From positions 1 to 33,744 of the forward strand of contig JAILOA010000350.1 of NCBI GenBank assembly GCA_024691065.1: a stretch of DNA of 33,744 bases, read 5' to 3'. The first letter of the stretch is position 1; each line of letters opens with the position of its first letter. A program made the position numbers and the translations under genes. The notes beneath the pieces are model-generated. The model was not told the DNA's origin, searched no databases, and was given only the letters and a program-made list of their open reading frames with translations. The stretch comes from Lachnospiraceae bacterium. Its GTDB lineage: Bacteria; Bacillota; Clostridia; Lachnospirales; Lachnospiraceae. Positions 3,925 through 10,572 of this stretch are shown here, piece after piece.

Positions 3925-5238
3925 ATGACTATTGGTATTGATATTACAAAGGGTGCGATTCAGGGAGCTTTTATATCCAAAGACGGAAATGTGAATGTAA
4001 TAACCGACAATAAAGAGAACAGTTTTCTTTCGGATAAGCTGGTTTTTGAGAGTTCCACAAATAATTATTTAGTCGGAAACAGCATAGATGTTGATAATAT
4101 GGATTATATATTGATTAAAAATGTATTTTCCGCTCTCGGAACCCGGAAAATATATTATCTTGGGGATAAAAAGTTATATCCACAGGTTGTTTTCGGTATT
4201 ATTTTAAAGGCTTTTATAAGAAGGATAGAAGAGAATTACGATGTTAAAATAGATTCGGTTGTATTTTCGGTTCCGGTTTTGTTTGACAGCACCGGAAGAG
4301 TTGCCCTTATCCAGGCGGCACAAATAGCCGGTCTGCAAACCAAAAGAATTATAAATCAATCTTCTGCATTATTAATGTTTCTTTCTTCATATATGGGCGC
4401 AAGCGATAACATTTTCCTTATGACCTACGATAAGTATGAACTTTACGGCGGTATCTTTGATATAGATGATAATGTAATCTATCCGGGCTTTGTCCATTCC
4501 GATTTTCCTGATAAATATTCGGAGATTTCGAACTCAAAAGACAATATTATTATTAATTTTTCATTGGATATAATCAGAAAATCCAAGATAAAAACCACTG
4601 TTTTAAAAGAATTATTTTTTGTTTTAGATGACACTCTTTATGATGAAATCCCTGATATTGACGATAAAATAAAGGATAAACTCGTTTTGAAGACTAAGCT
4701 TAACAATATAAGGGTCATAAGATACGGTTCCATAAGCGCAATAGGTGCGGCTCTTTTGGCACTCAGATTTGATGATATGGATATGGCACTTAAAATATGT
4801 CCGAGAGTTGTTAACGAATGTCTTTTTAAGAGTGTTTCCATTGCTTTAAAATCCAATGAAACAAAAGAAATATTTCCGGAAAATATAAGTATTCCATGTT
4901 ATAAAACACATTTGTTTTTACCTTCCGGGATTTTACAATCAGAGGCCTATACATCAGTTGTTTTAGGTAACAGTAATATGGTATATGAAAATAAATTTAT
5001 AGGATATCTGGAATTAAACAGATTAAAGAAAAGCTTTTATAAAAAAGAAAAGATACTTGTTACATTCAGAATTGATAAAAACGGAATTATGGATGTGCGT
5101 GCGGAAAGAAAGGACAGCAATAAAAAGGTTTATGCCTTTATTACAACGGAAAGCTTTATGGACGGGCAGGAAATACTTGAAGCAACCAGGCTTATAAAAC
5201 AATTGATTGATAATGATTGCCTGACACTTTGCTTTTAA
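3925..5238 (+). CDS. Divergent Hsp70/DnaK-like protein with degenerate nucleotide-binding loops
   Basis: VVFSVPVLFDSTGRVALIQAAQIAGLQTKRIINQSSALLM parallels DnaK VPAYFNDSQRQATKDAGxIAGLxVxRIINEPTAAAL; ILVTFRIDKNGIMDVRAERKDSNKK parallels DnaK IEVTFDIDANGILNVSAxDKxTGKE. Confidence 0.8.
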   Translation: MTIGIDITKGAIQGAFISKDGNVNVITDNKENSFLSDKLVFESSTNNYLVGNSIDVDNMDYILIKNVFSALGTRKIYYLGDKKLYPQVVFGIILKAFIRRIEENYDVKIDSVVFSVPVLFDSTGRVALIQAAQIAGLQTKRIINQSSALLMFLSSYMGASDNIFLMTYDKYELYGGIFDIDDNVIYPGFVHSDFPDKYSEISNSKDNIIINFSLDIIRKSKIKTTVLKELFFVLDDTLYDEIPDIDDKIKDKLVLKTKLNNIRVIRYGSISAIGAALLALRFDDMDMALKICPRVVNECLFKSVSIALKSNETKEIFPENISIPCYKTHLFLPSGILQSEAYTSVVLGNSNMVYENKFIGYLELNRLKKSFYKKEKILVTFRIDKNGIMDVRAERKDSNKKVYAFITTESFMDGQEILEATRLIKQLIDNDCLTLCF

Positions 5239-5421: not shown

Positions 5422-5508
5422 AGCTATTAGTGCAAATTTCAAGTTACATTGATAAAATGGGATTTAGGCTTGATTATAAAAAATTACGGTTTAGAAGGGA
5501 GAATTCAA

Positions 5509-6747
5509 ATGGCTAAAATTCGTCCGTTTTCGGCAATAAGACCAACCAGGGAATTCGCAAGTGAAATCGCTGCATTGCCTTATGATGTATTTAATGAGGC
5601 AGAAGCAAGAGAGGAAGTTTTAAAGCATCCTTTAAGCTTTCTTAGAATCGATAGACCGGAAACACAGTTTCCCGAAGGAACAGATCCTTATTCCGAGGAG
5701 GTTTACAGAAAAGCTCATAAGATATACGTAGATATGAAACTTAAAAAGCAATATTTTCAAGATTTGGATGTTGCTTATTATATTTACCGGTTAACAATGG
5801 GAGATCATATACAGAATGGTATAGTTGCCATGGCTGCTGTAAGTGATTATGAAAACGGTATAATTAAAAAACATGAGAATACAAGAGTAGAGAAGGAACT
5901 GGACAGAATTAATCATATTACCGAATTAAGTGCTCAAACAGGTCCCATCTTCCTTGCATACAGAGCAAATGAAGTGATTAATAATATTGTAAAACGCGTT
6001 ATTGATGAAGAAAAGCCTATCTATGATTTTACATCGGATGACGGCATCAGACATACTATGTATAAAATCAATGAATCACGTGATATTGCTGATATCATAG
6101 ATCAATTTAAACATATGAATTCTATTTATATAGCAGACGGTCATCACAGGGCCGCATCAGCTGTTAAAGTATGTAAGAAAAAACTTGAATATGTTGATTT
6201 AATTGATGATACAATTGAAGCTAATTATTTTCTTTCCGTGCTTTTCCCGCATGATGAGTTATTGATTATGGATTACAACAGAACCGTTAAAGATTTGAAC
6301 GGTCTTAGTGAGGAAGAATTTTTAAATAAGATTAAGGATAACTTTACCGTTGAAAAGATGGAAGGTGAATATAAAAAGCCTTCAAAGAAGGGTGAAGTAA
6401 ATATGTATCTTAACGGTCAGTGGTACATTCTTAATGTAAATCCGGAATTAATTCCCGATGATCCTGTTAAGTCCCTGGATGTATCACTCCTTCAGGATTA
6501 TTTATTAGATCCTGTTCTTGGTATTTTAGATCCCAGAACCGATGACAGAATCGATTTTGTCGGAGGTATCAGAGGATATAAGGAGCTCGAGAAGAGAGCC
6601 GATACCGATATGAAGGTTTCATTTGCTATGTATCCGACAACCATTGAAGAATTGTTCAATGTAGCGGATGCCGGTCTTTTGATGCCACCAAAATCTACAT
6701 GGTTTGAACCAAAATTAAGGAGCGGATTGATTATTCATGAAATTTAA
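5509..6747 (+). CDS. DUF1015 family protein
   Basis: MAKIRPFSAIRP...IAALPYDVF, KKHENTRVEKELDRINHI, YIADGHHRAASA typical of DUF1015; RBS GAAGGGAG before ATG at 5509. Confidence 0.88.
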   Translation: MAKIRPFSAIRPTREFASEIAALPYDVFNEAEAREEVLKHPLSFLRIDRPETQFPEGTDPYSEEVYRKAHKIYVDMKLKKQYFQDLDVAYYIYRLTMGDHIQNGIVAMAAVSDYENGIIKKHENTRVEKELDRINHITELSAQTGPIFLAYRANEVINNIVKRVIDEEKPIYDFTSDDGIRHTMYKINESRDIADIIDQFKHMNSIYIADGHHRAASAVKVCKKKLEYVDLIDDTIEANYFLSVLFPHDELLIMDYNRTVKDLNGLSEEEFLNKIKDNFTVEKMEGEYKKPSKKGEVNMYLNGQWYILNVNPELIPDDPVKSLDVSLLQDYLLDPVLGILDPRTDDRIDFVGGIRGYKELEKRADTDMKVSFAMYPTTIEELFNVADAGLLMPPKSTWFEPKLRSGLIIHEI

Positions 6748-7378
6748 TTTTTTAAAAGATGACAGTAAGGTAATGAAGGTTCTTTCAAAAATTGTTGACG
6801 GCCTTCTTTTAACAATTATATTTTCAATTGCATGTATACCTTTATTTACAATCGGATGTTCTTTTACGAGCTTTTATTATGCTTCCGTAAAAGTTATAAG
6901 AAGAAACAGAGGATATATGTTCAGATCTTTTATAGACAGCTTTAAGCTTAATTTTAAGCTTTCAACTGTTGTCTGGCTTATCCAGTTTTTAATAATGGGT
7001 ATATGTACACTCGGAGCTTATGTTGCATTTACAAGTAAGGGGATGCTTGGATCTGTTGTTTCGGTAATACTTATAGCGATTTATTTTGCTATATTTGTAG
7101 TTGCGCTTACCGCCGGACCATTTATCTATCCGGCAATTTCAAGATATAAAATGAATCTTAAAAATGCTTTAAAGCTTGCTCTCATTATGGTTCTTTCACA
7201 TCCGGGCAAAAGCTTACTGGTATTTTTTATGACTGTAACCTATATCTTTCTTATGATATTTTCGGCCATGAACCTTGTTATTCTGGTATTTATATGGCCT
7301 GAATTGTATATATTGGGGCTTTCCATGATTATGGAAAAGGTATTGTTGGAATATATTGATTCCATTAAGAATGAGTAA
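6737..7378 (+). CDS. YesL/DUF624-like integral membrane protein
   Basis: Hydrophobic ORF; KIVDGLLLTIIFSIACIPLFTIGCSFTSFYYASVKVIRRNRGYMFRSFIDSFKLNFK matches the YesL pattern; overlaps the DUF1015 stop by 11 bp. Confidence 0.7.
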   Translation: MKFNFLKDDSKVMKVLSKIVDGLLLTIIFSIACIPLFTIGCSFTSFYYASVKVIRRNRGYMFRSFIDSFKLNFKLSTVVWLIQFLIMGICTLGAYVAFTSKGMLGSVVSVILIAIYFAIFVVALTAGPFIYPAISRYKMNLKNALKLALIMVLSHPGKSLLVFFMTVTYIFLMIFSAMNLVILVFIWPELYILGLSMIMEKVLLEYIDSIKNE

Positions 7379-7408
7379 TAAAAAATATAAATGGAAATGA
7401 GAGAAGCT

Positions 7409-9607
7409 ATGAACAAAAAATTATATGATCTTATGGATTGGGGCGATGTAGAAGAGGTAGTTTACTCTGAATCCACAAATCCCGAAAGAATTTTAGGAAT
7501 GCATAAAATTCCTGAAGGGTTGCTTATCCAGGCTTTTTTTCCTGGAGCGACAAATGTTGAATTGGTAGAAAAAAGCTCTTCTAAAATGTATAAAATGGAA
7601 GTGGCCGATGAAGCCGGATTTTTTGCGGTTTTAATTCCTAAAAAAAGAATATTTAAATATACTTATAATGTTTATTATGAAAATCAAACCTTAAGAGCCG
7701 TCGAGGATTTGTATTCTTTTACAAATCTAATCGAAAATGATGATTTGAAGCGTTTCGAGGATGGTAATCTGGATGATGCTTATCATATATTGGGTGCGCA
7801 TGTTGACAAAGTTAACAATATATCCGGCGTCAGATTTGCGGTCTGGGCACCTAATGCCATGCGAGTAAGTGTCATAGGTGATTTTAATAATTTTGACGGA
7901 ACAGCATACCAGATGATGAAACTGGGTGATAGTAATGTATTTGAGTTGTTTATTCCGAATGTTAAGGAAGGAAGCTCTTACAGATATGAGATGAAACTCC
8001 GTTCCGGAAAGGTTATTATCAAGAATGATCCTTATGCTATGGATTTAAATGTAACGGAAAGTGAAAGGTACTCATCCGTACCGACTTCTAAATCGTATAT
8101 TTGGAAGGATATGCATTGGTATCAGAAAATACAAAAAAAGAATTATCTGACATCCGCTTTAAATATTTATGAGGTACATTTGGGAAGCTTTTTAGGTGAG
8201 GTTACTACCTACGAAGAACTTGCCGAGAAGATTATTGAAAAAAAGGATAAACTTTTATTTACCCATATTTTGCTGTTTCCGATTGCCGAATATGATGATA
8301 AGGCATCGGCAGGCTTTATGACTTCGGATTATTATTCACCTTGTAAAAGTTTTGGGGATAATGTTGATTTTAAGATATTTATTAATAAACTTCACCGTGC
8401 CGATATCGGTGTTATCCTTGGATGGTCGGCAACATATTTTCCGAAAGCCGAAAATTCGCTTTATAAATATGACGGTAACAGTTGTTATGAAAATAATGAT
8501 GCAAATAAGGCTAATCATCCTTTCGTAGATGCAGCCCGTTTTGATTTCGAGAAAAACAGTGTAAGATGCTTCTTAAAATCAAATGCATTGTTCTGGATTG
8601 AAGAATATCATATCGACGGATTAAGTGTAAATTCCCTTGAAACCGCTATATTTACTGACTATGGAAAGATAATTTCATCTAATTATAATGATAATCCGGA
8701 AAATCTCTATACAGTAAATGAATATGGTTGTTCTTTCTTCAGGGAATTAAATGCTTTGATACACAATAAGCATCCCGAAGTAATAACTATTGCCGAGGAA
8801 ATTCCGGGATATCAGGGAGTTACATATTCTTCGGAAGAAGATTCATCGGCACTCGGATTTGATTTTAAATACAATGACTATTTCAGACAATCACTTATAG
8901 AATATATGTGTACCGATCCTTCATTTAAGAAGAACAGACATGAGCTTATTACCGATAATATGGTTTATGCATATAGCGAGAATTTTATATTACCTTTATC
9001 TCATAATCTGTTTGAAAAGATGTTTGGGGCACGTATTACGATGCTTCCGGGCAATGAACTACAAAGGAATGCCGAATTAAAGCTGCTTTATGCTTATCAT
9101 ATGACGCATCCGGGTAAAAAGATGTTCTTTATGGCTCTTGAAAATGCATTGAATGAGGCCTGGTCACCGGATTCGTATATCTCTTATTATGAAAGCAACA
9201 ATGAGGAATTTAGTACATTCCTCCGCGATTTAAATAAATTTTATTTGGAACATCCTGCACTTTTTGATTCCGATTATGAAACAGAAGGTTTTTCATGGAT
9301 GAGTTGTTTGGATTCGGATCATAGTATTATTACATTTTCCAGAAATTCCTCAACAAGTGATGAAGTATTATTTGTGATTATCAATTTTGCTCCTGTACTT
9401 TATGAGAATTTTATTGCCGGAGTACCTTTCTTCGGAACTTATAAGGAAATCTTTTCAAGTGATAATGTAAATTACGGCGGTTCCGGACATTTGAATCAAT
9501 CAGCTATTATATCAAAGGATATTCCTTGGGATGGGAGAGAATATAGCATTAATGCGGTTGTTCCGCCGCTGAGTATGATTATATTCGAAGCTAAAAAGTT
9601 AGAATAA
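7409..9607 (+). CDS. GlgB-like (CBM48 + GH13) protein lacking key catalytic residues; probable pseudoenzyme
   Basis: CBM48 segment GVRFAVWAPNAMRVSVIGDFNNFDG and GH13 barrel alignable by eye to GlgB (SNALFWIEEYHIDGL, VITIAEE, YSENFILPLSHN, HPGKKMFFM); start chosen at the second in-frame ATG (MNKKLYDLMDWG). Confidence 0.82.
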   Translation: MNKKLYDLMDWGDVEEVVYSESTNPERILGMHKIPEGLLIQAFFPGATNVELVEKSSSKMYKMEVADEAGFFAVLIPKKRIFKYTYNVYYENQTLRAVEDLYSFTNLIENDDLKRFEDGNLDDAYHILGAHVDKVNNISGVRFAVWAPNAMRVSVIGDFNNFDGTAYQMMKLGDSNVFELFIPNVKEGSSYRYEMKLRSGKVIIKNDPYAMDLNVTESERYSSVPTSKSYIWKDMHWYQKIQKKNYLTSALNIYEVHLGSFLGEVTTYEELAEKIIEKKDKLLFTHILLFPIAEYDDKASAGFMTSDYYSPCKSFGDNVDFKIFINKLHRADIGVILGWSATYFPKAENSLYKYDGNSCYENNDANKANHPFVDAARFDFEKNSVRCFLKSNALFWIEEYHIDGLSVNSLETAIFTDYGKIISSNYNDNPENLYTVNEYGCSFFRELNALIHNKHPEVITIAEEIPGYQGVTYSSEEDSSALGFDFKYNDYFRQSLIEYMCTDPSFKKNRHELITDNMVYAYSENFILPLSHNLFEKMFGARITMLPGNELQRNAELKLLYAYHMTHPGKKMFFMALENALNEAWSPDSYISYYESNNEEFSTFLRDLNKFYLEHPALFDSDYETEGFSWMSCLDSDHSIITFSRNSSTSDEVLFVIINFAPVLYENFIAGVPFFGTYKEIFSSDNVNYGGSGHLNQSAIISKDIPWDGREYSINAVVPPLSMIIFEAKKLE

Positions 9608-9630
9608 TATAGAACAGGATGGTATTTTCA

Positions 9631-10572
9631 ATGATTAAGTACTATAAAACAGATGATAAGAAAATACATGAAGAAACAGGACCGGGAACAGGTGTCTGGA
9701 TAAATATTGTTAATCCTACGGAAGACGAAGCGCAGCATATTTCCTCGGAATTAAATATCGATGTTCAGGATATAAAGGCTGCCTGCGACGAGGAAGAAAC
9801 ATCCCGTGTGGAGCTTGAAGACGGCTATACACTTATTCTTGTCGACTTGCCTGTACCTGAAGTAATTAATGATGTAGAAGGATATACCACAATACCTCTC
9901 GGTATTATAATTACACAGGATTCGATTATTACTGTTTCAACCGTTGAATCTCCGGTTTTGGCACCTTTTATTAATAATCGTGTAAAAGAGTTTTCAACAA
10001 AAAAGAAATTACGTTTTGTTTATCAGATATTATTTAGAATAACTGCTCAATATCAGGCTTATCTTAGACTTATAGATAAGAAAAGAACAGCAATAGAAGA
10101 GAATATCGGTGGGGGAACAGAGGATGATGATATTATCAGCTTACATTCACTCGAATCCACACTCGTTTACTTCGCAACATCTCTTAGAGCAAACGGAGCA
10201 GTGCTTGACAGGCTTACAAGATATAAGCGTTTAGAACAATACCCTGATGATAAAGAACTCCTTGATGATGTTATTACCGAGAATAAACAGGCTATCGAGA
10301 TGACTACAATTTACAGGGATATTATCAGTGGTACCCGTGATCTGTTATCAACAATTATCAATAATAAAATAAATGATGTCATGAAATACCTGACATCAAT
10401 AACCCTGGTTCTTGGTATTCCGAATATTATTTCCGGTATGTACGGAATGAATGTTAATTCCAAGGGAGTACCTCTCGCACATACGGTATATGGTTTTACA
10501 TCTATAGTTATTGGTGTTATTATAATTTGCGGTATTGCTTTGCTTATATTAAAACGAAAAAAATTATTATAA
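9631..10572 (+). CDS. CorA-family divalent-cation transporter
   Basis: C-terminal GMYGMNVN (GMN signature) with two terminal TM segments; AGGA RBS suits the ATG at 9631. Confidence 0.9.
   Translation: MIKYYKTDDKKIHEETGPGTGVWINIVNPTEDEAQHISSELNIDVQDIKAACDEEETSRVELEDGYTLILVDLPVPEVINDVEGYTTIPLGIIITQDSIITVSTVESPVLAPFINNRVKEFSTKKKLRFVYQILFRITAQYQAYLRLIDKKRTAIEENIGGGTEDDDIISLHSLESTLVYFATSLRANGAVLDRLTRYKRLEQYPDDKELLDDVITENKQAIEMTTIYRDIISGTRDLLSTIINNKINDVMKYLTSITLVLGIPNIISGMYGMNVNSKGVPLAHTVYGFTSIVIGVIIICGIALLILKRKKLL

Follow-up and report, generated by a model that had tools for sequence, protein, structure and literature searches.

A GlgB-like protein with a dismantled active site from a Lachnospiraceae bacterium: a probable pseudo-branching enzyme in a paralogue group with recurrent loss of catalytic residues

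The stretch of DNA analyzed here (the window; 33,744 nucleotides) represents a 33.7 kb contig, one of 470 in an 85% complete assembly of a rumen-type Lachnospiraceae bacterium. The family assignment follows from named organisms with related genes, among them records that match the other species of its genus. The contig codes for a protein with the domains of a glycogen branching enzyme, whose gene is embedded between genes for DUF1015 and DUF624 proteins on one side and for a CorA-family ion transporter on the other. We use the label GlgB-B for the paralogue represented by this protein and GlgB-A for the canonical clade. The genes and domains of the locus are as follows:

5449-6747, + strand: DUF1015 gene (PF06245, E=1.8e-106)
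6737-7378, + strand: gene for a DUF624 membrane protein, directly upstream of GlgB-B (PF04854, E=5.4e-13)
7391-9607, + strand: GlgB-B gene, probable pseudo-branching enzyme of 738 aa (open frame, TIGR01515, AlphaFold2 model, Foldseek)
7439-7714, + strand: GlgB_N domain, aa 17-108 (PF22019, E=3.4e-32)
7790-8038, + strand: CBM48 domain, aa 134-216 (PF02922, Pfam CBM_48, E=5e-26)
8087-9286, + strand: GH13-type barrel region with dismantled active site, aa about 233-632 (AlphaFold2 secondary structure, conservation analysis)
9296-9592, + strand: alpha-amylase C-terminal all-beta domain, aa 636-734 (PF02806, E=3.2e-20)
9619-10572, + strand: CorA-family ion transporter gene, directly downstream of GlgB-B (PF01544, E=3e-53)

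The frame at 7391-9607 comprises 738 codons with no internal stop, in agreement with an earlier note on this DNA, which had read it as open for more than 730 codons, and its product contains the full GlgB set of GlgB_N, CBM48, GH13 barrel and C-terminal beta domain. It scores 530.6 bits against the TIGR01515 model, above the cut-off of 463.95, and lies below the cut-offs of both NF003811 and NF008967. The AlphaFold2 model, for which a 39-sequence alignment of the window and locus proteins served as input, has a pLDDT of 89.4 and a pTM of 0.90, and Foldseek aligns it over the full length with the M. tuberculosis GlgB (3K1D), with TM-scores of 0.90/0.92. The likeness to the structurally solved GlgBs (GH13_9; 3K1D, 1M7X, 5GQW) hence extends to the domain order, GlgB_N-CBM48-barrel-C, and to the fold (TM 0.90-0.92), at a sequence identity of about 33%. 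As modeled, the window protein has the complete fold of a GlgB around an active site that has been dismantled; what sets it apart from GlgB (GH13_9, EC 2.4.1.18) is the replacement of both catalytic Asps, nucleophile and transition-state residue, and of four of the five other active-site residues.

For the catalytic positions we use E. coli GlgB numbering and take Asp405, Glu458, Asp526, Asp335, His340, Arg403 and Tyr300 to be established as such. The columns of the catalytic Asp, Glu and Asp align gap-free through the four GH13 motifs with those of M. tuberculosis GlgB (3K1D) and Cyanothece BE1, and both the coordinates and the codons that the earlier note had assigned to these motifs proved exact when re-read to the base:

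8420-8443, + strand: motif I, GWSATYFP (canonical DWVPAHFP), with Asp335 replaced by Gly and His340 by Tyr (codons re-read)
8618-8638, + strand: motif II, GLSVNSL (canonical GLRVDAV; alignment, codons re-read)
8789-8800, + strand: motif III, IAEE, with the acid/base Glu458 kept (GAG, 8795-8797; alignment, codons re-read)
8999-9013, + strand: motif IV, SHNLF, with His525 kept and Asp526 replaced by Asn (AAT, 9005-9007; alignment, codons re-read)

Within motif II the nucleophile Asp405 is replaced by Asn (AAT, 8630-8632) and Arg403 by Ser (AGT, 8624-8626), and Tyr300 is replaced by Phe, leaving Glu458 and His525 as the only survivors among the active-site residues examined. The triad Asp405/Glu458/Asp526 reads Asn/Glu/Asn, which is not that of a functional GlgB. 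A displaced catalytic Asp is ruled out by the gap-free alignment across all four motifs, which leaves no intact one elsewhere, and the view of the earlier note that this is not a branching enzyme is well supported by the sequence. The CBM48 domain, described there as well preserved, is so at the level of the family, but the glucan-stacking Trp of its FNxWDG motif is Phe168 in the window protein (7892-7894). This Trp is invariant in the 123 canonical GlgB-Bs of the collection described below and changed in 5 of the 34 altered ones. Given this substitution and that of Lys198 by Arg, glucan binding by the CBM48 domain is plausible rather than guaranteed.

All four species of the window genus encode an altered GlgB-B at one locus, with a constant gene order of DUF1015, DUF624, glgB-B and corA, and each has a separate canonical GlgB. 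In the three other species the triad (nucleophile, acid/base and transition-state residue) reads Asn-Gln-Ser, Asn-Gln-Asp and Cys-Gln-Glu. As the triad changes are accompanied by further active-site changes and altered orthologues occur at the same locus in three species, assembly or sequencing error and chance are excluded as sources of these many coordinated replacements. The orthologues are altered, with open frames and under purifying selection, and do not show the random decay that would have spoken against the earlier note; the D-to-N and SHN changes are not fixed among them, the substitutions being lineage-specific. A fixed alternative active site is likewise unsupported, because the replacement residues differ between sister species. 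Between species of the genus the altered GlgB-Bs are 40-47% identical, as against 80-85% for GlgB-A and 67-81% for CorA, and this much faster evolution of GlgB-B points to weaker constraint.

The second, canonical glgB that the earlier note had proposed to seek is found on contig 89 of the same assembly; its product is 35% identical to the window protein and has the canonical motifs DWVPAHFP, GLRVDAV, AEE and SHDEV. The genome also contains glgC and glgD, adjacent to each other, which indicates that the glycogen pathway is present in part, and the match to GlgA in this 85%-complete assembly is a contig-end fragment only. Judged by its motifs, a canonical GlgB-A is present in all 22 of the genomes with an altered GlgB-B that were examined.

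Three sources supplied the GlgB-Bs: 200 genomes that sample the family at one per genus, fetched regions, and named genomes that were scanned. Among the 157 non-redundant sequences the Asp-Glu-Asp triad is present in 123 and missing in 34, which are spread over many genera; the subset from the whole-genome search has 22 altered out of 107, a figure that is not a clean prevalence because this sampling favors high scorers. Three triad residues are lost in 15 of the altered sequences, two in 10 and one in 9, and their nucleophile position is occupied by Asn, Cys, Thr, Leu, Ser, Ala, Ile, Gln, Gly or Val, with Asp still present in 5. Every one of the 34 also shows a change in at least one of Tyr300, Asp335, His340, Arg403 and His525, positions that played no part in defining the altered set, as against 2 of the 123 canonical sequences. 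When the motif columns are left out of tree building, parsimony requires 11 changes under the LG model and 13 under the C20 mixture model, with 10-11 forced by well-supported branches. A single ancestral pseudoenzyme clade is rejected by the AU test (p-AU 9e-124, log-likelihood 777 lower). The canonical state of the outgroup GlgB-As makes the change one of loss, and catalysis by GlgB-B has been lost independently at least about ten times across the family. The window genus belongs to a large, mostly altered clade (22 of 23 rows altered under LG, 16 of 17 under the mixture model), which may in part reflect long-branch grouping. Repeated loss of catalysis in the same gene copy, with the protein kept, suggests a task for this protein that is not catalytic. 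The observation made in the earlier note is confirmed, and its interpretation is supported and widened to a recurrent catalytic loss across Lachnospiraceae. A search of open-access papers, which by its scope is no proof of novelty, returned no description of recurrent GlgB pseudoenzymes.

The gene-neighborhoods of GlgB-B show several recurrent features. DUF1015 lies upstream at 22 of 31 altered and 44 of 121 canonical loci; it recurs in many genera and at some loci abuts or overlaps glgB-B, and serC/serA-like genes are often found further upstream of it. The DUF624 gene occupies the same position in all four species of the window genus. Directly downstream of GlgB-B and on the same strand, a gene with Pfam MscS domains (mscS), coding for a mechanosensitive channel of that family, is found at 110 of the 153 testable Lachnospiraceae loci (89 of 120 canonical and 21 of 33 altered), as against 0 of 10 for GlgB-A. 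The gap between the two genes, measured at altered loci, is mostly within 100 bp, and in one example the mscS gene (L048:9834-10799) adjoins the GlgB-B gene (L048:7261-9834). The product of the latter also exemplifies a Lys/Ala/Glu-rich C-terminal tail, 40-200 aa in length, which occurs in 79 of 123 canonical GlgB-Bs, 18 of 34 altered ones and 1 of 10 GlgB-As. In the window genus the tail is absent from the GlgB-Bs and no mscS follows the gene, the CorA gene being found instead; at the L169 locus the CorA gene comes after mscS. Near the GlgB-B locus, at 3925-5238 of the window, an HSP70/actin-fold protein of 437 aa is encoded, with only a partial match to Pfam HSP70; it is also present in G200.

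It could be argued that GlgB-A suffices for branching, and that the altered GlgB-Bs are dispensable young pseudogenes in unselected decay. Such a reading would accommodate the coexistence with a canonical copy in every genome examined, the substitutions that differ in each lineage and the faster evolution of altered GlgB-B than of GlgB-A. Against it, all 34 altered frames are full length and open, whereas in a neutral simulation 0 of 200 frames were still open at 0.05 substitutions per site, and neither stops nor frameshifts nor an omega near 1 were found in the altered sequences examined. Close altered pairs (L176, L177, L179-L182) have an NG86 omega of 0.045-0.065; under codon models omega is 0.068 and 0.045 in two other altered clades and 0.017 in the altered GlgB-Bs of the window genus, the last value reading only as far below 1 because synonymous sites are saturated there, and 0.008 in the GlgB-A of this genus. 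The changes are, moreover, clustered around the active site in a non-random manner: columns invariant in the canonical proteins are kept in the altered ones to 99% in the N domain, 91% in CBM48 and 96% in the C domain, as against 64% in the barrel and 43% at the eight active-site residues. The locus itself is retained in four species of the window genus. Open frames, omega values and the neutral simulation together reject pseudogene decay, and the notion of a redundant relic, already largely contradicted by these data, appears improbable. We can say with good confidence that the window protein is a maintained functional protein; catalytic loss in orthologues is here combined with purifying selection, an intact frame and a canonical paralogue in the genome, as expected of a pseudoenzyme.

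This function might conceivably be catalytic after all, with a remodelled pocket supporting a different reaction or with residual transfer via Glu458 alone. The window protein does keep Glu458 and His525, and its barrel is predicted to be still folded, but sister species vary in the nucleophile (Asn or Cys) and in the acid/base residue (Glu or Gln), which is unexpected for a conserved new active site and leaves this proposal very improbable. The downstream gene raises a different alternative, namely that the ancestral role of GlgB-B was tied to its operon partner MscS (CorA in the window genus), for instance in glycogen- or turgor-linked osmotic regulation, and that the catalytically dead copies retain just this role. 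The frequent occurrence of mscS behind both canonical and altered GlgB-Bs, and behind none of the 10 GlgB-As, and the tail that is missing from most GlgB-As speak in its favor. However, the window genus keeps its GlgB-B after losing both mscS and the tail, linkage of the two genes does not amount to physical interaction of their products, and the open-access literature searched yielded no glgB-mscS operon or other link. We consider such a role of the channel neighbor unlikely, and less certain than a glucan-binding partner or regulator.

The reading that we prefer, and hold to be reasonably probable, is that the product of the gene at 7391-9607 is a pseudo-branching enzyme, which is kept beside a canonical GlgB-A and probably serves as an alpha-glucan-binding partner or regulator. 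Its components differ in strength: judging from the replaced residues the protein is, with high confidence, non-catalytic for branching, and its molecular role, which we infer to lie in glycogen metabolism as an alpha-glucan-binding partner or regulator, stands at about even chances. The computational observations of a lost catalytic apparatus, a maintained protein, recurrent loss and a coexisting canonical copy could be understood if GlgB-B, ahead of the losses, had already been serving a second purpose that did not depend on catalysis; selection would then have gone on acting on the fold and the accessory domains, and the active site could be given up time and again. GlgB-B would bind glycogen via CBM48 and the barrel surface and modulate GlgB-A, GlgA or glycogen turnover, by analogy with ISA2 acting on ISA1 and GlgD on GlgC. 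The accessory domains that are kept would fit the glycan-binding, scaffolding or regulatory role suggested in the earlier note. Tentatively, GlgB-B may be a dual-function protein in which the selected trait is the sensing of glycogen or a scaffolding role, with a possible coupling to the neighboring MscS/CorA channel and the osmotic state of the cell; selection on such a catalysis-independent role would explain how catalysis was discarded at least about ten times with the protein kept, although we see this as a possibility on the doubtful side.

Non-catalytic proteins with a GH13 fold include the SLC3 heavy chains 4F2hc and rBAT, which have structural or regulatory roles at a membrane transporter; these are animal membrane proteins, not related to glycogen and distant in sequence. 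The plant isoamylase ISA2 (GH13_11) is a non-catalytic partner of ISA1 in starch synthesis (PMC12510319). Like GlgB-B it is a GH13 protein whose nucleophile and other catalytic residues are replaced, and its reading frame is kept by selection in the same cell as an active paralogue, itself a glucan enzyme (the activity of GlgB-A being judged by motifs). Unlike ISA2, which is of the debranching type and lost catalysis once, GlgB-B is a bacterial member of the branching family that lost it at least about 10 times, and whereas ISA2 is a partner of ISA1, a heteromer of GlgB-B is putative. GlgD, a regulatory paralogue of GlgC (PMC10395257), provides a parallel in the same pathway, with both glgC and glgD present in the window genome; its fold is unrelated to that of GlgB-B, and its partnership is known whereas that of GlgB-B is putative. 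In the chlamydial GlgA-GlgB fusion the branching domain is non-functional, with no detectable branching activity, and a second GlgB is active; the inactivity has been ascribed to GlgA being fused at the N-terminus and to ongoing gene loss (PMC7935935). Here too a bacterial GlgB, predicted from its residues to be inactive, stands beside a second GlgB, but in GlgB-B the inactivity would stem from a maintained replacement of the active site.

The acceptance of the window protein by TIGR01515, a curated 'equivalog' model, illustrates how annotation pipelines can miscall altered GlgB-Bs as branching enzymes; as these are almost certainly not branching enzymes, estimates of branching capacity for genomes from gut and rumen may be too high. 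The occurrence of dead and active versions of one gene in related genera makes the question of their function testable in bacteria, and the conserved glgB-mscS pair is a concrete lead to a second role. A good first target for function is the clade of L176, L177, L179, L180, L181 and L182, with an omega of about 0.05, which marks strong purifying selection; its members are well conserved, with Leu or Gln as the nucleophile residue and Ser at the acid/base position.
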